Both the position numbers and the translations under genes were made by a program. A stretch of DNA of 64,000 nucleotides from positions 1,482,377-1,546,376 of the forward strand of contig NW_006921540.1 in assembly GCF_000340215.1 (NCBI RefSeq). Direction: 5' to 3'. Under the pieces are notes generated by a model. It saw only the letters and a program-made list of their open reading frames with translations, was not told the DNA's origin and ran no database searches. This document shows positions 1 to 55,150 of the stretch, piece by piece (within the stretch, counting starts at the first letter, position 1; each line of letters opens with the position of its first letter). This stretch comes from Pseudocercospora fijiensis CIRAD86. Taxonomy: Eukaryota > Ascomycota > Dothideomycetes > Mycosphaerellales > Mycosphaerellaceae.

Positions 1-234
1 CCCTAGTAACGGCAAAAGAGCGTAGTAAATGTAATATAGTTACTATTATAGCCGGCAATCGTAGCCGGCAGTCGAATAAGAGTGTCCTTATAGTAAAACT
101 AATATAGTCTCTAGTTTAAACTAGGAATCTATATAGTTCGAAAAAACTAAACTAGAACTAGGGAGCTAGTTTGCCGCTAAGAAACTAAACTATATACGTT
201 TAGTAGTTCGGAAACCGAACTACTACGGGGTCTA
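1..234 (+). mobile_element. Right terminal part of a hAT element
   Basis: The window opens inside the terminal region of a hAT-family element. It ends with ACTACTACGGGGTCTA at 219-234, which matches, with one RIP-type change, the terminal repeat of the complete hAT MITE at 46,484-46,876. The subterminal sequence (GCCGCTAAGAAACTAAACTA, then a paired GTAGCCGGCA motif near 50-75) recurs at 16,900-16,990 and, reverse complemented, at the left end of the hAT relic at 35,590. No coding sequence is visible here. The left part of this copy lies outside the window. Confidence 0.7.
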
Positions 235-12594: not shown

Positions 12595-12769
12595 TATAGT
12601 TTTAGACAAAAGTCTAAGTTTTATAGGTTACCTATTTAGAATTCTAGGATCGCTTAGGATCGCTCGCGATCGATAGGATCGATAGGATCGTCGCGATCGT
12701 CGCGATCGTCGCGATTAGGAAAAATGTTTTTATAGTAGAAGGGGATTCCTTAGAAAATAGTATCTAAAA

Positions 12770-13205
12770 ACAAGAAGGCTTTAGATAGATAGGAGAAGGC
12801 TAAAGGGGCTGAAAAAATTAGGCGGACGTAGGCTATTATAAAGAAGAGTTATTCTTTAATAAGCAAAAGGGTAAAAGGTAGGTCTCGACGATAAAGAAGC
12901 GGCGCTTTAAACTAGGTACTATTACCCTTCGCGAGATCCGGCTATTCTAATAGAAAAGAGGGACCGAGCTTTTAATTCCTAAGACTCCCTTCTAGCGACT
13001 CGTCCGAGAAATTATACTAGATTTTAAGTCTCGTATACGATTTACGGCTAAGGCGATTAGTATTCTTTAGAAAGCTACGGAGGCATTTCTCGTAACCGAG
13101 CTTAAGCTTTCTAACTTCCTTACTATCTATACGAAGCGGGTTACTCTTTAAAATAAAGATATATAGCTTCTAGCTAAGATTCGGCGTCGGTTTATAGCGG
13201 ATTAA
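12770..13205 (+). pseudogene. H3a: RIP-mutated histone H3-like relic, copy 1
   Basis: From 12,894 to 13,205 one frame aligns to the whole histone H3 core. It shows LGTITLREIRLF for the alphaN helix, then TELLIPKTPF-stop-RLVREI, DFKS in loop 1, ATEAFLV in helix 2, TKRVTL before helix 3, and KDI-stop-LLAKIRR at the end. Six in-frame stops occur; five sit where H3 has Gln and one lies in a two-residue insertion between alphaN and helix 1. His of 'IHAKRVT' reads Tyr. The REI-to-RF spacing is 8 residues, as in canonical H3 and shorter than typical CENP-A. The upstream frame at 12,770-12,890 is basic and shifted by an indel or intron. No ATG is identifiable. The relic is non-functional. Confidence 0.8.
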
Positions 13206-13579
13206 TTAGAATTCGTATTTAGTCGTTAGATTAATCGCTTACCTAGCAAACGGCTCCTCTTAGAGTATAAGCCCTTCGATACCTTCTCCTTCTCCTTCTC
13301 TATCGACCTTTCTTAATTCTCTATTAATCGTATTACTAGAGAATATCTATACTACGGTAGGCTTCCCTAAATAAGCCGGCTCTTTACTAGGAGGAGGCCT
13401 ATTTTCGTATTATTTAACCGGCTTTAGGTACTAGCTATACTTCTCATTTTATCTCTACGCTATACCTAAATCTAAGGTACGAAGTAGAAACCTAGGGCCT
13501 TATATTTACTCGGTTGTCGCGGAGCGTTTATAAGTAAGGTATAAAGGGTTACGGCTTCCTTATAAGGACTAGAGAAGCG

Positions 13580-14560
13580 GTAAGGACTAGGAAAATAGGC
13601 TATAAGAGCTACTATTATCGACTACCGCGGCTAGCTCGCGGTTTCAAACTACCGCGGCTAGCGAGCGGGTTTAAACTTAAATAAGGATTGCAAACGGTAA
13701 GGTAAAGTATAAGCTCGAGTAAATACTTTACCGCGGCTAGTTAGCCGTTTTAAACCTAGGTAAGGAGGCGGCTAGGACTAGGAAAATAGGCTATAAGAGC
13801 TAGTACTATCGGCCCTCCTAGTATTAGGCGCCCGATCGTATATAACATAGTCTTATAAGCGAAGCATAAGATAATATAGGCTCTTAGTCGTTGAGAGTAA
13901 CGTACTATATATATATCTAGGCGTACTACTCTTATTTACTTATAACCTATATCCTAGGATAATCTTCTCGTACTTTCTTAGACACTTTTCTAGTACCTTG
14001 CCTATAAGCGCTCTACGACGACTAGGTAAATATAAGATACTAGGTTTTTGCTTAGTACCTTAGCCTTCGAGATAGGGCGGAGTTGAATTTAGAGGTATAG
14101 CCGGCACTCGTAGCCGATATACAGATACGGACGTAAGGAGCCTATAATCTTTTATACCCTACCTATAAACCCTTAGCTAAGTTTCGAAATAAAATACAAG
14201 CTCGAGTAAACACTATACCGCGGCTAATTAGCCGGTTGAAACTACTACGGCTAGTTAGCCGTTTTAATTCTAGATAAGGATTCCTAACGGTACGGCAAAG
14301 TATAAGCTCGAGTAAATACTTTACTATAGCTAGTTAGCCGTCTTAAACCCGGATAAGGAAGCGGCTAGGACTAGGAAAACAGGCTATAAGAGCTAGTACT
14401 AGCGGCCTTCCGCGGCTAGCTAGCTATCCTAAACTACCGCGGCTAGTTAGCCGTATTAAGCCTAGATAAGGATTGCTAACGGTAAGGTAAAGTATAAGCG
14501 CGAAGTGCGAGATAATATAGGCTCTTAGTCGTTTAGAGTAACATACTATAAAAATAACTA
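13580..14560. repeat. Imperfect tandem repeats with CCGCGGCTAG words
   Basis: Units of variable length repeat the words TACCGCGGCTAGTTAGCCG, then TTTTAAACCTAGATAAGGA, then GGTAAGGTAAAGTATAAGC, at about 13,620, 13,725, 14,215, 14,320, 14,420 and 14,450. GCGGCTAG and GTTAGCCG form short inverted pairs. The repeats lie between H3a and H3b in cassette copy 1 and are absent from copy 2, so they expanded or were lost in one copy. No coding content is visible. Confidence 0.7.
13850..14130 (+). repeat. Dispersed repeat R1, copy 1
   Basis: This block of about 280 bases starts CTTATAAGCGAAG and runs through AGTAACGTACTATA and GGCGTACTACTCTTATTTAC to a paired GCCGGCACTCGTAGCCGAT motif. Further copies lie at about 14,495-14,770 and 42,330-42,620. 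All lie in the spacer between H3a and H3b. It encodes nothing that I can recognise. Confidence 0.65.
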
Positions 14561-14770
14561 GGCGTACTACTCTTATTTACTTACGACCTATATTCTAGGA
14601 TACTCTCCTCGTACTTTTTTATATACTTTTCTAATACGTTGCCTATAAGCGCTCTACGATAACCGAGTAAATATAAGGTACTAGGTTTCTACTCGGTACC
14701 TTAGCCTTCGAAATAGGGCGGAGTTAAGCCTAGAGGTATAGCCGGCACTCGTAGCTAGTATAGAAAGACG
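14495..14770 (+). repeat. Dispersed repeat R1, copy 2
   Basis: Same block as at 13,850, including GGCGTACTACTCTTATTTAC and the GCCGGCACTCGTAGC motif near 14,742. It forms a direct duplication with copy 1, separated by the CCGCGGCTAG repeats. Confidence 0.65.
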
Positions 14771-14789
14771 GAAGTAAGGCTCTTCCTAC

Positions 14790-15728
14790 TAAATAGCTAG
14801 CTTGTTTAGTATAGCCTACCGTACTATAGATATTTATTATATTTTCCTAGTAATAGGCTTAGGTTGCTTGTTAGATAACTATAGCTAGTACCTCTAGCTA
14901 GGTTCTTATAGACGGTTAGACGGCATATAGTAGCACTATTACTATTATAGTAATAACGGCAGAAGGCATCTAGTTTGCTTAGCTAAGTTCGAAAGCTATT
15001 TACTTTTAGTTACGCGCCTATAACTATAGCGAATATAGCTTTAGAGCACTAACGTATAGAAACTAAACTAGCGAAGTTCGCGAACGCTACGAATATCCTT
15101 TTTACTCTTTATAGCGAGAAACTTATAAGTTAGAAATAGATATCTTTCTTAAGCGAAGCTTCGTTTACTAGATAGAGCGCGACTTAGAGAATCGTATAAT
15201 TGGATTTTTTAGTATTATTATTAATAGTACTATAGTATTACTAGGTAGAATTTCCTAAATTCTCCTTATAAGGCGAGTCGCCGTTTTGCTACCTAGCAGA
15301 TAAGTATTTCGACTTCTAGACAAGGAAGCTAGTTCGTCTAGTTAAACTACTAAAGAATATCTATATTATAGTAGGATACTATTATTACGCTAACTGTTTA
15401 TTAAAAGGAGGCTTTCGTCGTATTACTATACTAGCTATAGGTACCGGCTATATTTTAAAGTTTGCCGTACCTGCCTTTTTTAGCCGTACCTAACTTTTCT
15501 AGCTATATCTACCTTCTTTGCTTACTCTAATATTGCTATAGTATAGGCTTACGCGACGCTTACTCTATTGCCTAGCAATACCGCGATACTACCTCTCTAG
15601 CTATATATAACCTTCGTATCGATACCTATACCTCTACGCTCTATATCTACTACCTTTACTATATCTCCGCTCTATACGTACCTTCTTATATTTTCGTAAC
15701 GCAATCTTTTAATAATTCGACGACTTTT
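14790..15728 (+). other. Spacer and upstream region of H3b
   Basis: The stretch is RIP-mutated. A plus-strand frame around 15,000-15,480 is fairly continuous but does not match any family I know. The part from 15,330 to 15,650 is shared with 42,730-43,013 in cassette copy 2. At 15,645-15,658 it contains the intact site TATCTACTACCTTT, which is the empty site for the DDE element inserted at 43,014. The last part presumably held the H3b promoter; no clear signal survives. Confidence 0.4.
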
Positions 15729-16373
15729 ATAATAGCGAATCTACTCGACTAAGTTACGACGCTTCGTAAGAAGGGACCTGCTACTACTACGGTTTGCAAT
15801 AAGTCTAGACCTACTAGAAAGAGTATAGTATATCTATAGAATAAGGCTGCTACCGCTACCGCTAGTACTCGAAGAAGCGTTACGAGTAAGGCTAGGTATA
15901 AGACGACGACTAGCGCTTCTACTAATAGTAGTAACAATCGTAATAAGCGGCGATAGCGCCTAGGAAGTAAGTTTTGTCTATAGCCGGTAGCGTAGCTAGT
16001 AGCGTAGCTAGTAGTATAGCTAGTATTTTTACTCCTTTTTACTAGTCTTTCTTTAGCCGTAGCCCTTCGTAGGATTCGGGAGTGTTAGAAGGATGCTAGG
16101 CTCCTTATTCCTAGAGCTCCTTTTAGTCGACTTCTTCGCGAAATTACCCTAGGTACTATAATAGACCATCGCTTTTAATACTCCGTAATCTCCGCCCTTT
16201 AGGAGGCTATAGAAGCCTACCTAGTTCGTATCTTCGAATATATATTTCTCTTCTATATCTTTTCGAGCTATATAAATACTATTTTAGCTATCTAACCTAT
16301 AGCTATCTACGCGAAGCGGGTTACGATTATAGATAAGGATTTTAAAACCCTCGATTAGATTCTTAAGGGCTAG
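15729..16373 (+). pseudogene. H3b: intron-containing H3-like relic, copy 1
   Basis: The start is inferred at 15,729-15,734, where two ATA codons likely replace ATG. Exon 1 (to 15,966) gives a tail of roughly 80 residues rich in Thr, Ser, Lys and Arg, including RPTRKS. The intron at 15,967-16,056 begins GTAAGT and ends TTTAG. Across it the frame reads RLG plus TVALRRIREC, the H3 alphaN helix. Next come ARLLIPRAPFSRLLREI, a loop of 8 residues to the Phe of RFQ (Gln now stop), and EAIEAYLVRIFE. A second, decayed intron probably precedes YAKRVTIIDKDF near 16,310; the stop is TAG at 16,371. Stops match expected Gln. The loop length is canonical H3-like and the long tail CENP-A-like. Copy 2 is at 54,609. 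Confidence 0.8.
15967..16056 (+). other. Intron of the H3b relic, copy 1
   Basis: This 90-bp intron has donor GTAAGT, acceptor CTTTAG and a pyrimidine-rich TTTTTACTAG stretch before the acceptor, where copy 2 keeps TTTTTACTAATCC with a branch-like CTAAT. It contains repeats of GTAGCC/GTAGCTAGTA words. Position and phase are identical in copy 2 (54,880-54,958). Splicing restores the Gly-Thr-(Val/Ile)-Ala-Leu alphaN sequence in both. Confidence 0.7.
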
Positions 16374-16639
16374 AATATCTTTATTTAAGATAGTAGTAGG
16401 TAAGGTAGATATTCTTAGTGTCCTCTATAAGCGTTTCTATATATAAAATATACCGCTATTATACGGCGCTATATAGCGCGCTTATATATATATATATATA
16501 GTATAATATACTTTATTAGCCGTACGGAATTAAAGTCTCCGAAAATTTTATTAGTACTAGTCTTTTAAAGGCCTTGCTTTAAGGTACGTATATGTTCTTA
16601 TACTTCTTAGAAACCGATAAATTCCATAGTTCGAACTAG
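16374..16639. other. Short AT-rich spacer after H3b
   Basis: This noncoding, RIP-mutated sequence contains a (TA)n run near 16,480-16,502. Nothing else was identified. The right boundary of the H3 cassette must lie here or in the following hAT ends. Confidence 0.4.
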
Positions 16640-16990
16640 CTACTCCTATAGTCTCTTAGCAAACTAAACTAAACTAACCCGGACTACTACGGGGTCTACC
16701 CTAGTAATAGTAACTACGCTCCGATAACGGCAACTACGACCTAGTAACGGCAATAGCTATTATTAAGTCAACCGCGAGCAGGTTAAATGTAACCTAGTTA
16801 CTATTATAGCTAGCAGTAGTAGTTAGCAGTCGAATAGTAGTATACTTATAATAAAACTAATATAGTCTCTACTTCTAACTAGGAATCTATAGTTTAAAAG
16901 AACTAAACTAGGACTAGGGAGCTAGTTTGCCGCTAAGAAACTAAACTATATACGTTCTATAGTTCGTAAATCGAACTACTACGGGGTCTA
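16640..16990 (+). mobile_element. Two adjacent hAT right ends
   Basis: Two terminal sequences ending ACTACTACGGGGTCTA occur at 16,698 and 16,990. The first is preceded by AACTAAACTAAACTAACCCG, like the right end of the MITE at 46,876. The second is preceded by GCCGCTAAGAAACTAAACTA, like the end at 234. The arrangement suggests one hAT copy inserted beside or into another, followed by deletion. No left ends are visible nearby. Confidence 0.6.
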
Positions 16991-17143
16991 GTAAGCTATT
17001 ACGCGTCTCTAAAATATTCTAGGACCTTAGTAGCTAATGTAATAAGGCTACTTAGCTAGATAAGTAATTTAACTATTATCTACTCGATTACTACTACTAC
17101 GACTTCCGATACTTCCTACGACTTCCGCTAGACTATATACTAC

Positions 17144-17272
17144 AGTTAGAGAGTTAGAGCCCAAGTCATTAACAAAGCAAACTTAGTATACTACGAGAGC
17201 CCTCTTCCGTACTTAGAACTTCTACCTCTCTCCGTATCTATTAAATATATAGTTACTATTATACTTCTGCTA
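17144..17272 (+). repeat. Left LTR of the minisatellite-bearing element
   Basis: About 129 bases, near-identical to 21,043-21,172. The left copy has AAGTCATTAAC where the right has AAGGCATCGAT, and TTAAATATATAG where the right has TCGAATATATAG, which are partly RIP-type differences. Confidence 0.65.
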
Positions 17273-17384
17273 GCGAGTAGCAAAGGGCATAAAAGTGCAA
17301 TATTTATCGGTATAGACTAGCAGATATAGCGGCAGCAATATATTTATATAGATTCAAGGCATAGCGATAGGCGCTTAGTATATA

Positions 17385-18333
17385 TAGTATTAGAATATAG
17401 TATTAGAATATAGTATTAGAATATAGTATTAGAATATAGTATTAGAATATAGTATTAGAATATAGTATTAGAATATAGTATTAGAATATAGTATTAGAAT
17501 ATAGTATTAGAATATAGTATTAGAATATAGTATTAGAATATAGTATTAGAATATAGTATTAGAATATAGTATTAGAATATAGTATTAGAATATAGTATTA
17601 GAATATAGTATTAGGATATAGTATTAGGATATAGTATTAGAATATAGTATTAGAATATAGTATTAGAATATAGTATTAGAATATAGTATTAGAATATAGT
17701 ATTAGAATATAGTATTAGAATATAGTATTAGAATATAGTATTAGAATACAGTATTAGAATATAGTATTAGAATATAGTATTAGGATATAGTATTAGAATA
17801 TAGTATTAGAATATAGTATTAGAATATAGTATTAGAATATAGTATTAGGATATAGTATTAGAATACAGTATTAGAATATAGTATTAGAATATAGTATTAG
17901 AATATAGTATTAGAATATAGTATTAGAATACAGTATTAGAATATAGTATTAGAATACAGTATTAGAATATAGTATTAGAATATAGTATTAGAATATAGTA
18001 TTAGAATACAGTATTAGAATATAGTATTAGAATACAGTATTAGGATATAGTATTAGAATATAGTATTAGAATATAGTATTAGAATACAGTATTAGAATAT
18101 AGTATTAGAATATAGTATTAGAATATAGTATTAGAATATAGTATTAGAATATAGTATTAGGATATAGTATTAGAATATAGTATTAGAATATAGTATTAGA
18201 ATATAGTATTAGGATATAGTATTAGAATATAGTATTAGAATATAGTATTAGAATATAGTATTAGAATATAGTATTAGAATATAGTATTAGAATATAGTAT
18301 TAGAATATAGTATTAGAATATAGTATTAGAATA
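17385..18333. repeat. 13-bp minisatellite, 73 units
   Basis: Tandem units of TAGTATTAGAATA fill the stretch, and its length of 949 bases equals 73 x 13. Two variant positions recur: the first base is C in some units (CAGTATTAG) and the tenth base is G in others (TTAGGATA). The C variants keep a CA that RIP would turn into the common TA form. It lies just inside the left LTR of the element at 17,144-21,172. Confidence 0.92.
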
Positions 18334-18339
18334 TGGCAT

Positions 18340-21042
18340 TTATAGCATTAGTAATAGCATTATTAGCAATATTATAGCAATTGTTATTTAGTATCGGTAT
18401 CCTATAATAAAAGTATCGGCTAGGCGTACGTATCGCCTTATAGTACTATATATAGAAGACTTCGAATCTAGTATTAATAACAAACGTATTTATTAGAACT
18501 TCCCCTATCGAAAGTATAAGATATATAGGAGATCCGAAACCTCCTAACGAGCCTACTCGTATATAGTAGTAATATACTAAAGAGCCTAACGTATTAAGAA
18601 CTACCCGCTCCGATAGGATACTTAGGTAAGCTATATATATCCGAAGAAGGCAAGAATAGGTAGAATAGTATAAAGGGTGTATAGAATGTTACAAGGAAGC
18701 AGCGCGTTAGTTAGGATCTTAAGAGCCCGGAATTAGCTATAAAGATTGCTAACTTTAAGGGATTTTATAGTTAGATAATCCTATAGAAATATTATATCGT
18801 ATAAGTAGTAAGAGAGACTAAAACGAAGAAGATATTAAGCGGACTATCTACCGGCAAAGCCTAGTATTAAAAGTATTAAAGGCATCGAAGATATTAAAGG
18901 CTTTATCTAGAATCTTAATAAGTTCGTTATTACTATAGAGATAGTAGAAACGACTAGATATATAGCTATAACGAGGCTAAGGCAACTCTTAAAGGACTTA
19001 ACCTATATTACCGTTACTATAGAGTAGGGTATATCTAATTCCGAACTACTTACCGGTATCCGATATTGTAATAAGATCTTACGGAGTAGAAATAAAAAGG
19101 AGTAGTAGTAGGGGTTTTAAAGACGATAACGACGAGCGAGGTAGAGGTCCCTCTCGGAAAGTAATATACGGTACCTAAAGAAAGTATTCGGGGAATTCGT
19201 AGGTACTAGAAAATTCCTATTATATTAGTTTTAAGAGTTATAGGGCGAAGGGGGTCGTCCGTAATTGCTACGGTCTTATCCCTCTTCTAGAAGCGGCTTT
19301 CGGCGTTCTTCTAGGTCCTACGCTAATACTAAGATATATACCCCGCCGTATTCGCTACCTAATTTTCCTTAGAAATAAGGTAGATCTTCCCCTTCATTTT
19401 TAAGATTATTAACATTATCGTTACGCTTACTAACACTACTACTAAGAAGCCTACTATATCCTCTACTACTAGTACTAAATATAGCGACCGGCGTAGCTAA
19501 ATTAGAGCTAGTTAGTATATTCGTCGGTAAAGAAGTTAAGGGCAACGTAGAGCGTTAGTAGAATCGCTTTAAGAGACAGTAGAGTTAAGTTAATAGCAGA
19601 GCTAATCTAGTTTAGTAGCATAAGGAGTTTAATATATAGACAAAGGGTAAGGTAGTATTAGCTAGTAACCGGCCCTATACCTATAGGCTAGGTACTAAGC
19701 CTATAAAAAAGGCCTCCTTCTATAGAGTAGACAGATTATTAACCTCGTATAGCATACTATTTATATTACACTTTTCTAGTGCCTATGTTATAGGGCTCTA
19801 GTTACTAGCCTAAGCGACAAGTTTGTTATCCTATCTTGCTAAATATAGCTGCCTATATTGCTATTAGTTATATTACTCTTAGTAACCTATATTATTACTA
19901 CTAGTAGTAGTAGTAGTATTAGCTTCCGTCCTTTATTAGAGCCGAAGGTAGGGCTATCTCTTTATATCTAATAGGTATAGGTATACTAATTATAGACATA
20001 TTAATAGTATTAGATATTTACCTACGGAGATTAAATTAGGCCTCCGAGCGGAAGAGCTTAGCGATAGAGCTAACCTATATCTATTACTAAGGAGGTAGGA
20101 GTTAATTAATACCCTTAAGGGTATTAAAGAAGCGAATACCGCAATAGTTAACTTAACTAATAGTAAACCGGAGATCGAGGCTAGCGCTAATACTACGAGT
20201 TAGTAGCTAAAGGTATTATATACCGGCTTGTTTAATATTCTAGAATACCTTACGACCCGATATCGCGTATACTCGGAAGTGCGCCGCCGTAGTAAGGCAG
20301 TATTAGCTAAGCGTATTAGGCGCCTTTGTCGGTTAATAAACACTTAACCCCTACTTAGGCCTAGGGATCTTATCCTTCTTAGGAATTAGTCGATCCGTTA
20401 AAAGAGTTAGCAACTACTATAGACTAGGCTGTTCTATCTTAAACAATTAAGCGATAGTATAGACAATGCTTTTAAGTTATAGACTACTAATAGGACTAAG
20501 TAACGTTACTATAGGGCCTATACTACTACGAGTATTTATAGAAGTTTGCGCCTAGAAGTAGATACCTAGTAAAACAGTAGATCGATATAGTAGAAGGCCT
20601 CCTATAACCGCGTACGTTATACCTAAAGAAGGTAAAAGAAGATAGAGGTATATTACTAATTCAACCTACGTAATAGTACTTAGCAACTAACAATCGAGCG
20701 ATATCTCCGAAACCTCCGTATTAACCGATAACTACGGGTATTAAAGTATTTACTAAGCCGTGCCCTTTATATATCCCGTAACCTATTATTAACACTCGCT
20801 TACGAAGTATTACTATAAGAGTATAGATACATAGATTAGCCTAAAGCTATAGATAGAGATATAGATTAGACATAGTAACTAGCGTATTACTAGCGTAAGA
20901 GGCTAATTTGCATAATACCTAAGGGACCTATTTAGCGTCTAGATACTTCTTCTTTATATAATAAGCCGTATAGCGGCTAGAATATTATACAAGGCAATAG
21001 CGACACTATATCGCAGGCCCTAAGACTTGTAGAAGGGGGAGT
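18340..21042 (+). other. Degraded internal region of LTR element
   Basis: The plus strand has stretches of fairly open frame between 18,650 and 20,900 with basic and acidic runs. I could not match them to gag, reverse transcriptase, integrase or any other family. No zinc knuckle was seen. RIP composition is strong throughout. Confidence 0.4.
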
Positions 21043-21178: not shown

Positions 21179-24135
<2,957 letters not shown>

Positions 24136-25574: not shown

Positions 25575-25715
25575 ATACCTCGTGTGGGAGTGCGAGCATT
25601 GCGATGAAGTCCATATTAAATGTGTGGATAAGATAACGCGACGCGTCTGGGCAAGGGATGTGCGATCACAACGGAATGCTGGTTAATTTCCATGCTTGTG
25701 CGGCATGCTACATGT

Positions 25716-29366: not shown

Positions 29367-29375
29367 GTATTTTTG
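29367..29375. repeat. MULE target site duplication, left
   Basis: GTATTTTTG, identical to 32,639-32,647 on the other side of the element. Confidence 0.9.
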
Positions 29376-35589: not shown

Positions 35590-35814
35590 TAGACCCTATA
35601 GTAGTTCGGTTTCCGAACTACTAAACGTATATAGTTTAGTTTCTTAGCGGCGAACTAGCTCCCTAGTTCCGGTTTGGTTTTTTCGAACTATATAGATTCC
35701 TAGTTTAAACTAGAGACTATATCAGTTTTACTATAAGGACACTCTTATTCGACTGCCGGTCCGGCTACGATTGCTAGCTATAATAGTAACTCTGTTATAT
35801 TTACTACGCTCTTT

Positions 35815-36010
35815 TGCCGTTACTAGGGCGTAGTTGCTATTACTAAGGCGTAGTTTTACTATAAGGACACTCTTATTCGACTACCGGCTACGATTGCCGG
35901 CTATAATAGTTACTAGATTATATTTACTACGCTCTATTGCCGTTACTAGGGCGTAGTTGCCGTTACTAGGGCGTAGTTACCGTTACTAGGGCGTAGTTGC
36001 TATTACTAGG
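35815..36010 (+). repeat. hAT subterminal tandem repeats
   Basis: The word GTTACTAGGGCGTAGTTGCC and RIP variants (ACCGTTACTAGGGCGTAGTT) repeat about six times. Repeated subterminal motifs are typical binding sites for hAT transposases. Reverse-complement forms lie next to the hAT ends at 1-30 and 16,700-16,750. Confidence 0.65.
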
Positions 36011-36599
36011 GCGTAGTTACCGTAGTTACGAAAGCTTACTTATATAACGTTATATAGGCGGTAACAATTAGGGCTTCGTAATATTCTTATACCTTTTAAC
36101 TTCTTCCTCTATATCTATACCGATAATAACTACTATACGCTACGCCCCTATTCCTTTTTCTTATAATAGCAAGAGAGAAGCGCGCCGCGCGCTAAATAGA
36201 AGATAGAACTAAAGACCGCGAGTTTATTTTACCTAAGTATCTAACTAAAAAGCGTAAGACTAAAGAGGAGTACTTTATAAAGAAGAATTCTATACGAGAC
36301 TACGAGAGAAAGGAGAAGATAGATAAGGATAAAAGAGCTAAGAATAAGAGAAGAAAGGCGCGGAATAAGGCATTCTATTAATAGCTAGCGCCTATAGAAA
36401 AAAGTAAAGGTTAGAATAAGAAGACAACCTAAGAGAAGGCTAAGAGGAGGAAAGAATTGCGGCTAGTTTTCGAGCGTAAAGTTCTAGTAGCATAAGTTAA
36501 TCTAGCTAGCGGCCGTAGCTAGCAGCTATAGCCGGCAGCTATAGCCGGCATATTTTTCTTTAAAACGTTAACTAATAGTATTTAGACCTATAGCCGCTA

Positions 36600-39500
36600 C
36601 CTCTATCGATACGACCGATAGTAACGGAGATGTTTAGATAGCCGAGAATAATAATACTAGAGTTTAGGATACCGCGATAGAGCTTAATACTACGAATAAA
36701 GGAACTAAAAAAAGCGAGGAGATACTATACGTCGATCTAGTAATAGGTATAGTCTTAGGGCCTAACGCTATAGACGATAAGCGCTAGGAGCAGATCGAGT
36801 ACAGTTAAAGAGACGACATACTAGTAAAGGGCTAAGGTATAAGTCCTATTAATCTAGAAAATTATAGTTAAAGCTACTACGAAAAGCTAGTAAGGATTAG
36901 AATCGAGACTAGTCGTCTTTATATCCTCGATATAGAGTAGAAGTTTCTTTATTAGTATTAGAGCGAAGCCTTTACGTCTATAAAGGCAAAGTAGCTTACG
37001 ATTAATACGATCGGGGCTAGGTATCTAGGGACGGTAGAAGTGTTACTAAAGGAGGAAGGGGGATAGGTAATTATTCTATACTCGGTATATATAGCCGGCG
37101 TTCGTAGCCGGTAGATACTAATAGTTAAATAGAAAGCGTTTCTCGAGGGTAGAGTGCTACTACTATATAAAATCTTTACTAAGGCAGAGAGGGCTTATAT
37201 CCGGAATCTAAGCTACTAGTAGGATAGGTTAGCGTTAAAATTCTCTAAATCTCTATATAAGCCTCCGAGGGATTACCTATTTTAGCGATACGGCTTTATC
37301 TCGACTACTCCGTAAGTACCCGACGAAGCTCGAACGCTCTTTAAGGTCTTTACTAAGAAGCGGAAGGAGTTCGAGGATTAGGATTAGTTAATAGAGCTAT
37401 TAGTTAGTCTTAGGTTTCGTAGTTAGACTCGGCCTAAGAATTTACTTATCGAGTGTCTTATACTAAAAGAGGATAGATTAAGACTAAAAACGAGCTTAGA
37501 TTCGTTAGGTATAGTAGCTCGGTTCCGTTAGCAGGAGAGAGCCGCCGTATAGAAGGCAAAATTCAGGTAGTTAGGGTAGCTAGGAAAGAATTTCTAGTAG
37601 TTAGGCTAGCTAGGGTAGCTAGGAAAAAAAAATCTAGTAGTTAGGTAGCTAGGAAACAAAAAAAAAGATAGCTAGCTATTTACTACCTAGCTATTCCTAA
37701 CGATACGATACTATAAAAGAAAGGGTGTTTCCCTATAGCTACTAGTATATATCTACTACTCCTAAGTCCTTACCTTACTATACGAAACTTTAAAACATAC
37801 CGACCGATATTATATATATACTAGGCGCTATACTAGGAAGGCTAATAACGAGACGATAGTCGAAACAGTCTAGTATACGAGCGAGATTACGATAACGTCG
37901 AGAGAAGGTTATATACTTACCTTCGAGCCTATTAAGTCCTAGATAACGATTAGGGCTAGATTTATCCTCTCTGAATCCTAGTAGTAGGAATTTATTATAG
38001 GATACTACTACCTAGTCTTTACTTTTATAGAGTCTAAGTAGAAGGTTGTTCGGAGATATAAGAATATCGAGTATTAACCCAGATATCTTCGAAAAGGCTA
38101 GCTAGGCGTATCTTTAGAAACCCGAGTATACCGAGCAGTTTAATTAATAGGTCTATAAGATATAGTTCCCTTTATACTTACGTTCGAAGGAGTATAAACT
38201 CTAGAAATACTCGATATAATAGGGTAGTAAGGAGCGAACGGATATATTGTAGAAGTTCTTTATAGACTAGGTATAACACCGTTATACGACTTCTCGACTT
38301 AAAGGTTAACTAGTAATTGTCTATAACTTCTATAGTTTAATCTTAAAATACCCGGAACTAGGGGATAGTAACTTATCGCCTACGAACTATCTCTATTCTA
38401 AACGATATAGGGAATCTTAAGAAAAGAGGAGGGTTAATATAGATATAGCGTTCTAGAAAGAGGTACGTCTTCTAAAATGCCTAATAAACCGTAGAGATCT
38501 AGCTAATTAATATAGGCTACGCTTAAGGAAGCTCTGGGATTAAAGGCTACCGATTTCTCCCCCGAAGACTTTGGGTAACTAGCAAACGAAATGCTAGCTA
38601 TAAACGGTCCTTCGGAAGACTTCTATAAAAGGGAGTCTATATAGAAGATATATCTATATCTTATAAACTACCCTCCCCTATTTCTCGGCGCGACAACCTA
38701 GCGTATTATATTTAAAAAGAATAAAGAGACTACGTTAGACGATATTCGGGAGATCCTCCGTAATACTCGCCGAGTAGCTATTACTATTAATAGCTAGTTA
38801 AGCCGGACTATAAGAGCCTCCTTCCTCTCGATTATACTATACTTTATTAATTCGGATTAGAAACTCTAGGAACTTATAATCGGATTCCCTAAAATTCTAG
38901 GTTCCTATACTAGTAAGGATATAGCGAAGCTTATCTATACGGCAATAGATAGGGTTAGCGTAATAACGAAACTAATCTCGATTACTACGGATAACGCTAG
39001 TAATAATCGAACATTATATAAGGCGTTATATATATAATTTACTCGCGTATATCTTTAAAATTACTAATCGTATCGATAGGGTCGAGTACGTAAAGGAGAT
39101 TATAAGGTCTACAATCTAGCTTAATCTTCCGAATATTAAGCTCGCTACAATTCCGGATACGTACGATAATACGTACAATAATAACGATAAAGAGGAGCCT
39201 AGTAATAGCTCTAGCCCTATTAAATCGGAGCCGACGTCGATGCTAGTTATATCCCTAGAGAAGTTTCCCTACCTCGCTTATATAGTTTAAATCGCGATCC
39301 GAGCCCTTTTTAAGACGCTTAAAATTATACTATTAAACGACGACTAATAGAAGATCCTAGATAAGGATAAAGCAAAGTCGAAAGTCGAGAAACTCGTTAT
39401 AGTAATAAGACGGGATAAGGTAGAGAGCCTCGCTCTCGTTTTATATAAGGTATAACTTTTGTCCGTAGCCGGTATCCGTAGCCGGCAACCTAGTATAGTT

Positions 39501-40800
39501 CGAACTCTTTTTCTCTAGCTTCGTCGTCTAGTAATATATACGAACTCGAGCTTATAGAGATATAACCGATTCGAGGCTATTTAAAAGAACCTAATCGAGC
39601 GCCCTAAAACTAATGCCTAGAATATCGTATAGAATAAGCGATAGTAAAAGCGGCCTCCTTAGCGCCTACTCCGTTTTACCTAAGACGTTAAGACCCGGTT
39701 CGATTCGACTTTCTATATAGTTACGAGGGGATATGCTTTATATACCGCTCTCGAGATCTATTAGAGTTCCGAGGGTATTAAGTAGCTCGGGCTTATCCCC
39801 GCCGAATAGCGCTAAGTAGAGTATCTCGTCGATATTAGTAAGCATTACGCGAAGGTTACTACTACGATTAGAAGAACCTAAGGACCGACGATCTGCCTTA
39901 TCTTTACGTACTATAACTAGCTCTTTAACGAGCTCGACTAAACCGTAGCTAAGCTAGCTAAGAAGAGCGTTCCCTAGAAAGTAGCTATAACGAAAGCTAT
40001 AGATACCTCCTATACTAAGTTATATAAATATTATAGTGCTACCTTTAAGTCGTTCGGAGATATCTATAGCGTTACGTACTTGCTTAACCTAGTAGAAAAG
40101 GATATATACTAGTAGAGGCTAGAATAGAAGGGCGACGAGGAATAGCCTAAGTATTACTAGACTATTCTAGAAAAGATATTCTACGAGCGTCGGAAAGAAA
40201 CTAGTCTAAATATAGGTTCTATAAAGAAAAAGAAGGTTTAGAAGGCTCCGATATTATACCTGTTTCGTAGGTAGGAAGTAGAGGCAGAAGAGGAAGTAAC
40301 TACTAAAGTAAATAAAGAAGAGTTCGATCTCTATCGGCGCGCGGATACGTACTAAACCTATAGGCTCGGAAAGAGGGCTAATAATCTCTAGATCTTACCG
40401 ATTTTCTAGACGAATTCGGAGACGATATTCTCGCTATATAGTAGCGGTTAGAGCCTAAGTTTCTAACGATAGCGTCGGTCGCTTAGGACGTCCTCGCTAT
40501 ATCGAGCGTAGGTATAGGCTATAAGAGGTCTTTTAGTATCGCTCGTTACTAGGGCCGCTTTAATCGAATATACTCGCCTACTACCTTCGAGTCTATTATA
40601 GTATTCCGATACTATCTCCTCTACTAGAGTCGCTAAGGGAGGATACTAAAGATTATACTAAAAGACTTAATCGAGGAATTAGAAAACCTTAAGATCGAAG
40701 AAACCTAGAAGCGCGAAGAGAATACGAAATTTAGTCTAAGCGAAACCCTAATTAGTAATAACGAAGAGGAGAAGGGCGGAGGTAGAAAGCGATACTAGGT
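36600..40800 (+). pseudogene. hAT transposase relic, RIP-mutated
   Basis: Two diagnostic hAT regions can be read. Near 38,980-39,010 the plus strand gives ITTDNASNNRTL, the conserved second catalytic Asp with DNASNN. Near 40,470-40,640 it gives VLAISSVGIGYKRSFSIARY, followed by GRFNRIYSPTTFES, the C-terminal dimerisation domain, where the family has Cys-Glu-Arg at KR and Asp-Gln after AR. Several frame changes and many stops separate the parts, so no protein can be made. An N-terminal BED finger is expected upstream of 37,000 but not confirmed. Confidence 0.7.
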
Positions 40801-41000
40801 CGAGAAGCGGAAACGTATATAGGCTAAGAGTAGCTTTAAGGAGACGAAGTGTTTACATAGAAGGTAGCGTAGCCGGCGTATATAGCTAGTATATATCTTT
40901 AATATATTCCGAATTCCTAGGACCTAAATAGACTAGTTGCTATAGCAACCTACCCCGCTTACCTATAGACTATTTCTAATTCTCTATTCGCTCTTCCTCT

Positions 41001-41370
41001 CCTTCTTCCCTTTCCCTATATTCTTAAAGATAAATATACCTTAAGGATTCGGCTCTTTAGGCCTTACTAAGTCGGCCGCCTTCCCTTCCTTTAGCGACTA
41101 TCCTAAGTACGAATCTAACGAGGACCTACTAAGACGGTTTAATAGAATACTATTTAATCTAGAAAGTAAGAGGTATAAATGTCTCTTTACAATTATAGGC
41201 TTATTAATTTTCTAGGTCCTAGCGATATACCCTCGTCGCCTGAACGCGTATAAAGATACCTTTAGAGCCTAAAGGGCAAGGGTAAAGCAAGCTAAGTATA
41301 GGAAGACTATAGCGAGAACGAGATATCGGAAGAGTAAGACTATCCGTAGTATATATAAAGGAAGGGGGTT
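41001..41370. other. RIP-mutated spacer between hAT relic and H3 cassette
   Basis: No motif was recognised. Similarity to the left edge of cassette copy 1 begins at 41,371 (GAAGGGGGTTTCCTAGAAAA against GAAGGGGATTCCTTAGAAAA at 12,738). Confidence 0.4.
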
Positions 41371-41394
41371 TCCTAGAAAACAGTACCGAAAAAT

Positions 41395-41815
41395 AAGAAG
41401 GCTTTAGATAGATAGGAGAAGGCTAAAAAGAGTAGATAGACGAAGGCTATCGCGAAGAAAAGTTATCTTTCTATTAAAAAAAAGGGAATAAGGTAGGACT
41501 CGACGATAAAGAAGCGGCGCTTTAAACTAGGTACTATTACCCTTCGCTAGATCTAGCTTTTCTAAAATAAAAGAGGGACCGAGCTTTTAATCCCTAAGAC
41601 TGCCTTCTAGCGACTTATCTAAGAAATTATATTAAATTTTCAGTCTAGTATACGATTTACGGCTAAGGCGATTAGTACTCTTTAGAAAGCTATAGAGGCA
41701 TTTCTCGTAACCGAGCTTAAGCTTTTAAACCTCCTTACTATCTATATAAAGCGGGTTACTCTTTAAAATAAAGATATATAGCTTCTAGATTTAGCGTCGG
41801 TTTATAGCGGATTAG
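41395..41815 (+). pseudogene. H3a: RIP-mutated histone H3-like relic, copy 2
   Basis: Second copy of the relic at 12,770-13,205. The basic N-terminal stretch near 41,440-41,470 reads RQTKAIAKKS, which parallels the H3 tail around Lys4 and Lys9 (TK-x-x-A-(R/K)-K-S). The core from 41,509 reads FKLGTITLR, TELLIPKTAF-stop-RL, then KAIEAFLVTEL and IYIKRVTL-stop-NKDI. More stops occur than in copy 1 (for example Arg to stop in LREI). A 5-bp deletion near 41,795 breaks the last helix. Tail and core are in different frames, so an indel or an intron lies between them. It is non-functional. Confidence 0.78.
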
Positions 41816-43013
41816 TTAGAAATTGTATTAAGTCGTTAGATTAACCTAGGAGGAGGCCTATTTTCGTATCCTTTTACCGGCTATAGGTACCGGCTATATT
41901 TCTAATTTTATTTCCGCGCCGTCCCTAAATCTAAGGTATAAAGTAGAAACCTAGCACTCTATATTTACCGGGCTATTATAGAGACGAGCTATATTTAGAT
42001 TAGTTTCTTCGTATATCGCGACCTAGCGGATAGTAAGCGAAAGGGCGATAGAACGTTAATAATTTATCTCTATTTAGACCTAAAATACAAAGGTCCTAAG
42101 GAGCCCTAGTATTCTAACTATAAGGAGATTCTTTAGTATTAGTACTTTAATCCTCTATACTACGAGGCAGATAGTAAGCCTACGAGAGAGAAACTTTAAC
42201 GAGAGATTCTCTATAATACGTAGCGCTATTATATAGCGATAGATACGTACTAAGTCTAGCAACTCGAAGAAGAATTAAGATAGCGTATTAGCGACTAAGG
42301 AGGAGATCGATAGTATACTAGTAGAGTCGAGGTCTTATAAGCGAAGTACGAGATAATATAGGCTCCTAGTTATTTAGAGTAACGTACTATATAAATAACT
42401 AGGCGTACTACTATTATTTACTTACGACCTATATCCTAGGATACTCTTCTCGTACTTTTTATACTCTTTTCTAATACCTTATCTATAATCGCTCCGCGAT
42501 AACCGAGTAAATATAAGCTATAGGATTTCCGCTTAGTAGCTTAGCCTTCGAGATATAGCGGAGTTGAATTTAGAGCAATAGCCGGTACTCGTAGCCGGTA
42601 TATAGAGACGGTAGTAGGCCTTTTCTACTAAATAACTAGCTTATTTAGTATAGCCTACCTAATATATCTTATATTTCCTAGTAATAGGCCTAGGTTACTT
42701 ATAAGATTACTATAGCTAGTAAGGGAATTACTAAAGAATATCTATACTATAGTAGGATACTATTATTTTGCCGGCTATTTATTAAAAGGAGGCTTTCGCC
42801 TATTACTATACTAGCTATATATACCGGCTATATTTCAAAGTTTGCCGTACCTGCCTTTTTTAGCTGTACCTACCTTCTTTCCTTACTCTAATATTACTAT
42901 AATATAGGCTTACGCGACGCTTACTCTATTGCCTAGCGATACCGCGATACTACCTCTCTCGCTATATTTATCCTTCGTATCGATATCTATACCTTTACGC
43001 TCTATATCTACTA
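41816..43013 (+). other. Cassette spacer between H3a and the DDE insertion
   Basis: Bases 41,816-41,975 match 13,200-13,520 with a deletion. Bases 41,975-42,330 are absent from copy 1 and keep an open-looking plus frame with DLADSKRKGDRTLIIYLYLD and RQ-like stops; the family is unknown. Bases 42,330-42,620 are repeat R1 copy 3. Bases 42,730-43,013 match 15,330-15,655, the region upstream of H3b, and end in TATCTACTA, the left target site of the DDE element. Confidence 0.5.
42330..42620 (+). repeat. Dispersed repeat R1, copy 3
   Basis: Shares TTATAAGCGAAGTACGAGAT, AGTAACGTACTATATAAATA and GGCGTACTACTATTATTTAC with the copies at 13,850 and 14,495, and ends with the paired AGCCGGTACTCGTAGCCGG motif. 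Confidence 0.65.
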
Positions 43014-45375: not shown

Positions 45376-47150
45376 GTGTTACCTCTTACAATAGCCGGTT
45401 CATTACGAAACAACAACCGTACTGCCGCTAGCAGCGCTAGCAACGACAACGCTAGTAGCACAGTGCCTACTAAAGTGCCTACTAAAGCTCCTACTAAAGG
45501 GCCTGCTACTAAGCCTGCTACTAAGCCTTCTAAAGAATCTGTAATTCTAGGTAACGACCTAGAATTGCCTATTAACGACATTCTTAACAACATTGTTAAT
45601 CGACGATATAGCTAACTAGCCTTTAGCCCTTAACTAGTAGGGAGACTTTAAGAAGCCACTTAAAACAGGCTTGCTACCCTACGTTAAGAACAATAGCTAA
45701 AGGATAACCTCCTCGAGATTCGCCGCCTATAGGAAGCCCTAACAACTACTGCTAGACTAGAACTAGTAGCAGGACCTTCTATTTAAAAGAAGGATGCTAA
45801 GCTTAAAGACTATACCGTATTTAATAGCTCTAGCCGCAAGCAGTATAACGATTACATACGTGATTGTAAATTGAACTAGCGGAATGTACTAAGGGCCCTG
45901 CTAGACGACTATTCGCTAGTCGTCTATACTATGCAATACATTAATAGAGACCCAAAGCGTACCTAGGATAACTACTTTGACTCCCTTACTAATTAGACCG
46001 CTGTTTAGTAGCAAACCTATAAAACTATTATGCTAGACACCCTTAGAAACCCTATACTAAGGCAATAACACGCTTAGGACTAGTACCTTCGGGCTAAGCA
46101 AAAGACTAATTAATTAGCTCGTTTATTTAAGGCCTATTTAAAGACCCTCGAGGACGATTTGCTAGCTAAGACCGACTCTATCTAGATTTCCGAAATACGC
46201 CCTAAATTGCGATAGGAATTAGTCCTTAAATTAGACCGCCGTCGTGTATTCGAATAGGCTAACCTAACACGTATTTAATTTATAGTCGAAGTAGAAATAG
46301 CCGAGCGGGCTGTTTAGCTCTAGCAACGACTAGAATCGAGGATCCGACTAGCTAGTACTAACCGCGGCAACCGTAGTGCCCGCGGAGGAAACTAAGGTTC
46401 TACCTAAAACAACAATGCTAATAATAGAAACAGTAATAGCGACCGTAGAAGAGGCCGTAGCCGGCGGCTATATAGAGGAGGCCTAGACCCCGCAGTAGTT
46501 TGGTTTGCGAACTATAGAACGTATATAGTTTGGTTTCTTAGCGGTACCCCTCCGGTTTGGTTCCGGTTTGGTTTTTTACCCCGCTAGTCTAAGCTGGTTT
46601 CCGAGAAAATCCGACTAAACTACGACGATATGCGACGATATGCGACGACCTCGGATTCAGTCCCGGACGCGATAGGGGCCCTATATTGTATACGCTACAC
46701 GATTGCATCTGTGTTTCGGGCTATTTAGACGTGTTTTAGGATAGGTTTTTGTCCGTAGCCGGCACGTAGCCGGCAAACCGGTCCGTGCACCGGTTGCTTA
46801 GCAAACCAAACTAAACTAAACTAGAATTTCGGCTTAGCAAACTAAACCAACCCAACCCGGACTACTGCGGGGTCTAAGGAGGCCGCGATAGGGGCCGTAG
46901 AAGGGGCTCGTATCCCTATAATACTAACCGCTCGACTAATAATAGCAGTAACAATAGCTACGGCAATAATCTCCCGACCGGATTAAAGTGCTTTAACTGT
47001 AATAGCACTAGCTATCTACTAGGCTAATGCGACAAACCTAAGGACTAGGCCCGAATCGACCGTACTACCGCTAAGCACCGAAAGCACCTCTTAGCAGCTA
47101 ACGCTACCCCTATAGGCTAACCTTCGAAAAAAGAGTAAGCGCCGTACTAA
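45376..47150 (+). pseudogene. Chromovirus copy 1 gag relic
   Basis: The 79-codon open piece at 45,376-45,615 is the N-terminal, Thr/Pro/Lys-rich part of gag, with repeated (V/A)PTK words. The frame continues with stops. It is interrupted by the hAT MITE at 46,484-46,876 and resumes with a nucleocapsid zinc knuckle near 46,990-47,035 (CFNCNS, then Tyr in the place of the zinc-binding His, then Cys). It is inactive. Confidence 0.75.
46484..46876. mobile_element. Young hAT MITE with 8-bp target duplication
   Basis: This 393-bp element has perfect 16-bp terminal inverted repeats, TAGACCCCGCAGTAGT. It is flanked by the 8-bp direct repeat AGGAGGCC (46,476-46,483 and 46,877-46,884), the hallmark length for hAT insertions. 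Chromovirus copy 3 has the empty site (one AGGAGGCC near 63,800). The interior retains many CA and TG dinucleotides (for example GATTGCATCTGTGTTTCG), so it escaped most RIP and is the youngest insertion of the nest. It contains a paired GTAGCCGGCA motif near 46,757. It is noncoding, and the hAT at 35,590 belongs to the same family. Confidence 0.92.
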
Positions 47151-52490: not shown

Positions 52491-54527
52491 CCGAAATTTC
52501 GGCTTCCGCTCGGCGCCGGTTTATTAGCTTAGCGGGTCCGGATTTAAAGAGCTAAACTTAACGACTTTAACTCGATACTGCTACAATACTATAACGCATT
52601 GTTTTTTATTCTTATAAGTATAGAGAGCCGAGACTATATCTATCTAATGCATCTCTAATTTATACTATATAAAAATACGTAGTATTAGTAGAATAACAAG
52701 CGATAACAGTTAAGCCAAAGTTTAGCTATTAAACCGCCGACCTATAACTAGAAACCTCGCTTCTATACTAAAACAGCGCTTCTATAACTAACGATAGAAC
52801 AGGCCGTTAGACGACTTATTAATACGACTAAGACGCTGCTTACGGACTTAAGTGCGAATGTATCGCTTTACTATATTAATAAAGCGATCGTATTAGCCTT
52901 CTTCAAGTCTAGTAGCAACCTAACGGTCTAATTTAACCCTCCTTAGCTGCTTGAATAAGAAGTTACCTTCTTTAGCAAAGACACGCTTAATATTAGCTCT
53001 ATCTACGTATCTCTTACTCTAGCTACTACTTAACTCTTTACGTAACTAGCTAAAGAAGCCTATTAATTCTATGTCCGCTATATACGATTAATAGGAAGCA
53101 ATTAAAGCCGGAAATAGACTTAATGGTGTAGCAATCGTTAGACTAGAAGCCGCTAGCAGACTAGATCTACGCTTGCTACGAGAACGCTTCCGTAGAGCCT
53201 ATCTGTTACTAATATAGTTATAGATTACAATAGGGGTTAAAGAGCTAATAGCGGTTGTTCTAGTAGTCCGTAGTATCTTAAATAGGTTAGTAAGTTGCCT
53301 ACCGCGGTTCTTCTATATCTTCGAAGCTAATACTAAGCCTAGATCGCCTATAGATAGGCGCCCTTCTTTAATACCTTTAATCTAGCGGCTTATAACGTTA
53401 GGGTAGATCTTGTAGTAATCTTTACCTCTATCCGGACCGCTAAACTAACACAACCCGCCCTTATTAAGGCAGTACCTGTTCTTATAAGGCTAGCGCTTTG
53501 CTAACTTATAGCGAGCGTTAGTTGAAGAGCCGATTAAAGCAGTATTATTATCGTCGGCTTTAGCTTCTAAGCTATTAGATTAACCCTTAACTTTAGCTTA
53601 ACTAGCGTATAGAGCGTCTAATTGTTATTAAGTTGCTATATTACGAGGGGTGCCAGTTCTATAGACACGACGACTCTACGAGGCTCTACCTAGGTTACGA
53701 GATAGCTCTTTAATAGATACTATCTTCCGGCGCTTAACCGATAGCTTAAAGTCTAATCTAAGGCCCTTCTTGCCTTACGAATGCTAAGAAGATAGCATAT
53801 TGTACGTACGTTAGAAATTGCCCTTCTTAATACTAGTACTACGAAAGTAGTATTTAGTCTTAATCTTGTCCGCTAAGGCGACAATCTCTAAGCTAGCTAA
53901 CTTATAGTCGTCGTCGTTAGAGCTAGTTATAAGCTAGTTAGTATACTAATCTTAGACCTCTTTGTAGTAGGCCTCGCTATTATAGTTAATCTAACGAGGA
54001 TAGTATTTACTTAGTAGTAGCAACCGTAGATTAGATAGATTAACGATTGTCTACTATATTATATACTCGAAGACCTCTCGCTCTTATTCTATAGCTTTAT
54101 CTTCTTCTTTAGCCGATATATTGTCCTTATCGTCGATATCTAGTTACTAGGTTTGCTAAGTATCCGCTAGTAACTCGTCGTTAGTATTAGGTCCTTTACT
54201 TAACTTGGTGGTCGGCTCTCGCTAGCGCTTCTTAGTAGCTTATTTAGTCGGTTATTATATAGCGAGGGCTTCTTTCTTCTTCGAAAAGGGCTTCTATAGT
54301 CGCTTAGAAGTCCTTAGTATAGCGACAGCTCGTTAATAGCTTCCGAATTAGCCTCATTCTTAACCGAGATTGTTACTAGAGGACCTAAGTAGATAGTAGT
54401 AAGAAAGGCTTTCGTTCTAGTCTAGATTGCTACCTTTTTTATATAAAGAGAGTAGATCTATAGGAAAACTAAGGGTATACGGAAGTTACGAGATCTCTAC
54501 GTATAGCGCGCACTTCTAAATACTATA
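52491..54527 (-). pseudogene. Unidentified coding relic in right arm of DDE element
   Basis: The minus strand keeps a decayed frame with an acidic linker near 54,180-54,060 (LDIDDKDNISAKEEDKAIE) and a later stretch near 53,480-53,350 (GPDRGKDYYKIYPNVISR). I do not recognise the family. It might be a second gene of the DDE element or an older, interrupted insertion. The arm ends in the inverted terminal repeat at 54,512-54,527. Confidence 0.4.
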
Positions 54528-54608
54528 CTACCTCCGTAATACCCTCGCTCTACGCGCGCCTTCGTATACCTTTATAATGCACTTTTTTTCCTTAATTCGA
54601 TAACTTTT

Positions 54609-55150
54609 ATAATACCGAGTTTATTTAATTAAGTTACGACGCCTCGTAAGAAGGGACCTACTACTTCTATAGGTCGTAATAAGACCGGAAATAGTAGAAC
54701 GAGTATAGTATATTAACGTAAGAAGGCTACTACTACTACTACTAGCTCTAGTACTAGAAAGGGCGTCGCGAGTAAGACTCTACGTAAGACGATAGTAGGT
54801 AAGGCTCTACGTAAGACGACGACTAGCGCTTCTACTACTAGTAGTAATAATCGTACGAAGCGTCGATAGCGCCTAGGAAGTAAGTCCTATTTATAGTTAG
54901 TAGCGTAGCTAGTAGCGTAGCCGGTATTTTTACTATCTTTTTACTAATCCTTCTTTAGCTATAGCCCTCTATAAGATTCGGAAGTATTAGAAGAGTTCTA
55001 ATCTCCTACTCTATAAAGCTCCTTTCTAACGACTTGTTCGCGAAATTACCTAGTATTATATACTAGACCTTCGCTTCTAAGCCTCCGCGCTAGGCGCCCT
55101 TTAAGAGGCTATAGAAGCCTACCTAGTTTGTATCTATTAAGATATTAATT
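54609..55150 (+). pseudogene. H3b: intron-containing H3-like relic, copy 2
   Basis: Second copy of the relic at 15,729. The likely start is again two ATA codons (54,609-54,614). Exon 1 (to 54,879) encodes a Thr/Ser/Lys/Arg-rich tail with a small duplication (KTLRKT and KALRKT). The intron (54,880-54,958, 79 bp) has donor GTAAGT, branch-like CTAAT and acceptor TTTAG at the same phase. Exon 2 reads across as GTIALYKIRKY, then KSSNLLLYKAPF-stop-RLVREI, RF-stop-ASALGAL and EAIEAYLV. It breaks off after helix 2, at about 55,140, so helix 3 is missing. Stops match expected Gln. It lies just right of the DDE element, to which cassette copy 2 was host. Confidence 0.8.
54880..54958 (+). other. Intron of the H3b relic, copy 2
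   Basis: This 79-bp intron has donor GTAAGT, acceptor CTTTAG and branch-like TTTTTACTAATCC. It occupies the same position and phase as the intron at 15,967-16,056, and carries GTAGC-type repeats including GTAGCCGGTA. Confidence 0.7.

Follow-up and report, generated by a model that had tools for sequence, protein, structure and literature searches.

Histone H3-like genes carried by a hAT transposon have been described in the fungus Pseudocercospora fijiensis by Dhillon et al. (2019; PMC6710886), who, in the parts of their article available to us, count 784 H3-like copies in 471 elements. The full-length elements are 9.5–9.9 kb long, end in 20-bp terminal inverted repeats (TIRs), are flanked by 8-bp target site duplications (TSDs), and contain one or two H3s. 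The second H3 has a 16-residue insertion, which was called a mutation, and the H3s were read as a captured, intron-free transcript of a housekeeping gene. A DUF659 domain was reported in 277 of the 471 elements, and no dimerisation domain. Another paper (PMC13041039) cites, in its available part, the 784 copies only. Here we consider the same kind of element in a stretch of 64,000 nucleotides of P. fijiensis CIRAD86 (contig NW_006921540.1, positions 1,482,377 to 1,546,376; hereafter the window), in which a first-pass annotation, made from the letters alone, had noticed two histone H3-like relics, H3a and H3b.

A relative is known from Pyrenophora tritici-repentis: Manning et al. (2013; PMC3538342) described, in the part of the article that we could consult, a mostly intact hAT with an H3-like gene, H3L, for which there are expressed sequence tags; the element is 5.6 kb long, has a 2.3-kb short form, and carries one H3. 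Compared by description only, it resembles the P. fijiensis element in combining a hAT transposase, an open reading frame (ORF) whose function is unknown, and a diverged H3 that has insertions in its tail and is neither H3 nor CenH3, and differs in its length, its single H3 and its preservation. According to the available text of PMC6710886, there is no DNA similarity between the elements of the two fungi. Fungal DNA transposons, hAT among them, also encode TET/JBP dioxygenases, which are thought to counter silencing (Kojima 2025; PMC12730594, available in part); like the H3s, these are chromatin-related cargo genes, but they are enzymes of DNA methylation and not nucleosome subunits. Our search of the literature on transposon-encoded histones and on later treatments of the element returned nothing more specific.

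We take the element in the window to be the hAT of Dhillon et al., matched on the features described in the accessible parts of their paper: it shares the length, the 20-bp TIRs, the 8-bp TSDs, the two H3s, the 16-residue insertion in the second of them, and the hundreds of copies altered by repeat-induced point mutation (RIP). The original H3 was placed on scaffold 6, and the intact host H3 is on contig 6 here. Since the size, termini, contents and location of the original H3 all fit, the element was already known, and the belief of the first-pass annotation that no fungal element of this content had been described is contradicted by this paper and by the Pyrenophora relative. What is new is the intron structure of H3b and the pattern of change in the H3s; the part of PMC6710886 available to us does not describe frame-keeping indels, a fast loop 1 or tail repeats.

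A search of the genome (73.94 Mb in 30 contigs) with the Pfam profile Histone (PF00125) gave 772 candidates, of which 150 were scored. Internal stop codons occur in 148 of these, and they are almost exclusively TAG and TAA, as would be expected if RIP turned the glutamine codons CAA and CAG into stops, and in keeping with the earlier remark that the stops fall at glutamine positions. The two stop-free matches are the intact host H3 gene (L001) and C5:606604-606795, which covers profile positions 59–122. From the best-scoring H3 matches, twenty genomic stretches were selected and fetched: one is the host H3 and 19 are element copies, which belong to two families, F1 (16 copies, about 93–97% identical in the comparisons made) and F2 (three copies: L010, L017 and L023). 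Three F1 copies that were extended outward have sharp ends and span about 9.5–9.94 kb, a range set by the copy number, one or two, of a 360-bp repeat; this direct repeat of about 360 bp lies between H3a and H3b, at 13850–14116 and 14493–14890 of the window. As in other hAT transposons, short inverted repeats (TAGACCCCGYAGTRGTTCGG) are found at both termini of the full-length copies, and 8-bp TSDs flank all three full-length copies checked (CCTAAGAA, GTTACGAG and CAAAGTAC). The TIR pattern has 344 exact matches on the forward and 336 on the reverse strand of the genome, and none in the control. Together, the H3 and TIR matches indicate hundreds of dispersed, RIP-mutated copies, and not two.

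The mutation is near saturation: TA/AT is 2.08 in copy 1 and 1.86 in copy 2 of the window, versus 0.48–0.93 in a nearby gene island, and (CA+TG)/(AC+GT) is 0.16 and 0.13, respectively, versus 1.20–1.36. At about 24000–30000 of the window, an island of normal GC content (0.46–0.54) without RIP signature lies inside the RIP-mutated sequence.

The gene order of the full element is TIR, ORF1, transposase, H3a, H3b, TIR, the transposase and both H3s being on the same strand. The first-pass annotation had seen H3a and H3b in direct order within a 3.6-kb unit; the order is right (12738–13205 and 15732–16373, forward strand), while the unit proves to be part of a 9.5–9.94-kb element whose window copy 1 lacks its left half, and H3b is split by two introns. 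The recurrence of the same order is also real, and corresponds to a single second copy interrupted by an 11.5-kb insertion. The proposal of a mobile element carrying two H3 genes wrecked by RIP is borne out by the shared termini, the TSDs and a linked hAT transposase relic. The same facts bear on the alternative of a duplicated host H3 or CENP-A locus, later mutated by RIP and with no mobile element: H3b reaches 72% identity to the host H3 over the fold, which fits a host origin, but the hundreds of dispersed H3 copies and TIRs, the TSDs in three copies out of three, the transposase relic inside the element and the existence of the intact host H3 as a separate gene make this explanation extremely improbable, and the termini refute it.

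Motifs of the hAT transposase (ARDVLAIPS.. and TADNASNN, recognised by eye) are spread over three frames upstream of H3a, with a 46-nt intron at the point of frame change. The last piece matches Dimer_Tnp_hAT (PF05699) weakly, with an E-value of 0.0076 and 16.5 bits, below the curated threshold of 21.4. Apart from the histone, Pfam gave nothing significant on either strand of a full-length copy (the end of L029 plus L013, read through stops); in these frame scans, ORF1 has no match, no viral domain appears, and DUF659, with the RIP mutations left in, is not found either. The weak dimerisation match and the lack of DUF659 both differ from the published account, as far as it is available; RIP and the differing method may account for the missing DUF659, which we do not treat as a feature that separates families. 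Histones are encoded by some giant viruses, and a clam-virus histone (P0057) is among the weak matches of H3a, as might be expected of an endogenous virus with histones of its own. The hAT-type termini, the 8-bp TSDs, the transposase relic and the absence of viral Pfam domains in the element render such an origin hardly credible.

That the two relics are histones was to be checked with a profile hidden Markov model, and this check was positive: two stretches of one forward-strand frame of the full-length copy match PF00125 with an E-value of 2.4e-45, while the remaining five forward and six reverse stretches give no histone. H3a matches solved H3 structures of the PDB (E 3e-29), and its AlphaFold model, of low confidence (mean predicted local distance difference test score, pLDDT, 65; predicted template modelling score, pTM, 0.38), shows the four helices of H3 in their proper order. 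H3a is intronless, has two extra residues between αN and α1, and is 58–60% identical to the host H3 over the fold; the values for H3b are 56–72%. No intact close relative was found among the 86 protein matches of H3a (the top ones are 47–60% identical) or among the 175 of H3b (the top one is 67% identical over 65% of the query); P0001, a translation in the wrong frame, was left aside.

The structure of H3b was deduced from alignments of 20 and then 28 copies, 20 of the 28 having been picked from the genome matches: there are two spliceosomal introns and three exons. Intron 1 starts with GTAAGT in 26 of the 28 copies and ends with AG in 27; its removal gives RLG-TVALR.IR, which fits KPG-TVALREIR of the host, and it lies one codon downstream of the second intron of the host H3, in the same phase. 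Twenty-five of the 28 copies have an intron 2 of 48 nt; its sequence in L027 and L018 is GTATGT...GCTAATAC...TTTTAG, and in the smaller alignment the 5' GT is kept in 8 of 20 copies and CTAAT is present. Without this intron, FESVNLIAIYAKR aligns gap-free with FEDTNLCAIHAKR of the host (the FE..NL region), where the host gene has no intron. The 48 nt equal exactly 16 residues, and intron 2 is the published insertion; it is an intron and not a mutation, and the H3 that contains it has two introns, unlike the intron-free transcript of the published account (in its available part).

These introns bear directly on the explanation stated in that part of PMC6710886, according to which the hAT took up a host H3 transcript that was passively copied along, the H3 pieces having no role for the element. 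The two introns of H3b, the second of which falls at a position that is intron-free in the host gene, show that it is no bare copy of a processed transcript. The argument may hold for H3a, which is intronless and H3-like over the fold. The available account filed the histones as inert housekeeping fragments, and the introns correct its view of how H3 entered the element.

The way in which H3b has changed also points to long selection on the protein. We call an indel shared when the distinct event occurs in at least 2 and at most N−2 copies, the sets being 27 diverged copies for H3b (the truncated window copy 2 was left out) and 23 for H3a (without L061, which is truncated). All eight shared indels of H3b exon 1 are multiples of three, and exons 2 and 3 have none. 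The proportions outside the exons are 1/6 in intron 1, 0/2 in the 5' flank and 1/4 in the 3' flank, intron 2 having no shared indel, so that the frame is kept by 8/8 shared indels in the exons vs 2/12 in introns and flanks (Fisher p 0.0007). The H3a fold has no shared indel among its 23 copies, and between F1, F2 and the window copy the tail varies in length by 9, 6 and 21 nt.

The frame of exon 1 contains a repeated H3 tail module, GKAPRK-T (GGKAPRKQLA in the host), in one to three copies. P0003 and P0004, two divergent H3s, have tails that repeat APRKTVAGKAPRKSVAGK modules, much like H3b. At the position that aligns with H3 lysine 9, read by eye from a motif alignment of this variable tail, 18 of the 28 H3b copies have lysine, nine threonine (including the three F1 copies looked at) and one serine; we take this as a hint of an effect on chromatin.

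Substitutions were counted as transversions only, since RIP makes transitions, and four of the 28 copies, which are broken in exons 2–3, were dropped from the H3b site counts, leaving 24. Within exon 2, a block at H3 residues 76–82 (the end of α1 and loop 1) varies at 10 of its 14 non-degenerate sites, vs 20 of 106 in the rest of the exon; the permutation p of the densest seven-codon window is 0.004. Intron 2 has one variable site in 48. For 276 copy pairs, which are not independent, grouped into five bins by distance, the rate of change in the block is about four times that of the rest in four bins (0.034/0.008, 0.137/0.032, 0.257/0.058 and 0.341/0.083) and 2.6 times in the most diverged one (0.280 vs 0.109). 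Between the two subfamilies, the phases of transversions along the whole element give weak coding signals.

From these observations we argue that the hAT transposon probably owned two resident, evolving H3 variants that worked before RIP and perhaps helped it to resist silencing. As the termini, TSDs, transposase relic and gene order show, a transposon of 9.5–9.9 kb carried both genes, with its own transposase upstream of them and in the same orientation; at the level of sequence, H3b was a spliced gene of three exons before RIP, and H3a an intronless one. The H3s would have been inherited and have diversified with the transposon subfamilies under constraint on the protein, rather than as dead passengers, which is well supported for H3b and less so for H3a. 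Most likely the variants would have entered nucleosomes, altering the chromatin or the silencing of the element DNA, a parallel to the TET/JBP transposons; this would account for a histone core that is kept while tails and loop 1 change. RIP then mutated the copies to near saturation. The evolution of H3b as a spliced gene, in frame and together with the transposon, is well supported by the copy alignments, while we infer the function of the H3s.

Several results weigh against a working pair of histones. When single-copy events are included, the multiples of three amount to 9/11 indels in exon 1, 2/5 in exon 2 and 1/3 in exon 3 of H3b (2/9 in intron 1, 0/3 in intron 2, 0/2 in the 5' flank and 2/10 in the 3' flank); frame breaks in single copies are expected from decay after the death of the element. 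Shared indel intervals in the tail of H3a keep the frame in only 3 of 8 cases, and several of them are slips of 1–2 bases in A-runs; moreover, 11 of the 23 H3a copies have lost the frame at some point. Transversions affect 36/174 non-degenerate, 14/60 twofold or mixed and 5/27 fourfold sites of H3b exons 2 and 3, and therefore the rates alone give no demonstration of purifying selection; the corresponding counts for the H3a fold, 7/192 non-degenerate and 0/35 fourfold sites, represent too little variation for a test. The 688-residue read-through of the transposase has no homologue among 5.8 billion proteins (7997 candidates scored), and none of the 47 Dimer_Tnp_hAT hits or of the 21 DUF659 hits in the genome (E 0.001) falls within the span of the 148 stop-bearing H3 copies, the latter result being unlike that of PMC6710886 in its available part. 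Last, neither an intact copy nor RNA or protein has been seen.

Passive capture draws on the same codon-position rates, which lack a clear purifying signal, and on the frame-breaking shared indels of the H3a tail. It does not account for the introns of H3b, and the frame-keeping shared indels, the repeated tail module and an H3a fold that is free of shared indels at 58–60% identity to the host all point to selection; we find it rather unlikely. If the H3s were working, spliced and rapidly changing genes, the transposon would have supplied its own nucleosome subunit, a parallel to the transposon-borne TET/JBP enzymes, and these natural H3 variants could show which surfaces of H3 matter to silencing. 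With the introns and the way the genes have changed, what had been read as captured fragments becomes a testable case of histones owned by a transposon.

A bolder proposal is that of selfish histones: a transposon lineage would have kept a working H3 pair, one of which would have a loop 1 diversifying under selection as in centromeric histones and threonine in place of lysine 9 in 9 of 28 copies. Locked in an arms race with the chromatin or the silencing of the host, such histones would recur in two orders of fungi (the present one and, by the available description, that of the H3L-bearing Pyrenophora). We advance it only tentatively. Loop 1 evolves fast in CENP-A, and the rapid change of CENP-A at loop 1 and in the tail is similar to the pattern of H3b. 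CENP-A is also defined by a loop 1 longer than that of H3, whereas loop 1 of H3a and of H3b has the length of H3's, and no link to centromeres was seen. The earlier idea that the element might reach centromeres thus finds no support. In the trees, H3a does not group with CENP-A; forcing it together with five CENP-A-like rows is not rejected by the approximately unbiased (AU) test (p-AU 0.236). A CENP-A origin of H3a had been considered, because SNLL and KDM are common to H3a and a CENP-A-like protein of Zymoseptoria (P0046), and was set aside for lack of support in the tree. The list from the genome search for a separate host CENP-A was filled by element copies. H3a and H3b form separate clades in both trees; as the AU test does not reject one common origin (p-AU 0.386), we do not claim two independent captures.

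The features of the window are collected in Table 1.

Table 1. Parts of the hAT element and associated sequences in the window (positions are those of the window).
Feature	Position	Strand	Basis
Copy 1, H3a through right TIR; left half lost	12738..16698	+	Similarity to full-length genomic copies starts at 12738
H3a relic, copy 1, intronless; first codon not conserved here	12738..13205	+	Alignment; G000:C9:1495249-1495560 in the PF00125 search
H3b exon 1, tail with GKAPRK-like module; start inferred	15732..15966	+	Frame anchored on intron 1; shared indels 8/8 multiples of three
H3b intron 1, 90 nt, GTAAGT...TTTAG	15967..16056	+	GTAAGT in 26/28 copies, AG in 27/28
H3b exon 2: αN, α1, loop 1, most of α2	16057..16239	+	Copy alignments; fast block at H3 residues 76-82
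H3b intron 2, 48 nt (published '16-residue insertion')	16240..16287	+	48 nt in 25/28 copies
H3b exon 3 to stop codon	16288..16373	+	Copy alignments
Right TIR, copy 1	16679..16698	-	One mismatch; none expected in shuffled sequence
Copy 2, left part: TIR, ORF1, transposase, H3a	35590..43013	+	92% to full-length copy over 35590-42567
Left TIR, copy 2	35590..35609	+	2 mismatches
ORF1 relic region, no Pfam match	36223..37506	+	Positions mapped
Relic of the hAT transposase with RNase H-like and dimerisation regions (intron at 40345-40391)	38516..40720	+	Motifs; Dimer_Tnp_hAT E 0.0076
H3a relic, copy 2	41353..41809	+	Alignment
11.5-kb insertion of other repeats splitting copy 2	43014..54525		Matches resume at 54526; inverted ends at both junctions
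Copy 2, H3b part, ends within exon 2	54526..55135	+	DNA match, copy alignment
393-bp short derivative, both TIRs and 8-bp duplication AGGAGGCC	46484..46876		TIR and DNA match
Left-end fragment of another copy, TIR 16971-16990	16784..16990	-	DNA and TIR match
Left-end fragment of another copy, TIR 215-234	1..234	-	DNA and TIR match

The H3a tail of copy 1 has a 1-nt frameshift. The 11.5-kb insertion in copy 2 is bounded by the inverted ends TATAGTATTTAGAAGT and ACTTCTAAATACTATA, and is perhaps a DNA transposon with TA target sites that contains nested repeats. The 393-bp element is a short non-autonomous derivative, and similar TIR pairs about 373 bp apart are found elsewhere in the genome, for example at G000:C1:8853279-8853651 and C2:581713-582085. 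A 13-bp tandem array starts at position 17226 of the window (76 register positions of a 300-nt reference), and the region at about 17000–19000 has a low GC content and a strong GC skew. Last, long inverted repeat arms at 48434–51049 and 59619–62246 are 80–85% complementary and lie about 8.6–12.4 kb apart.

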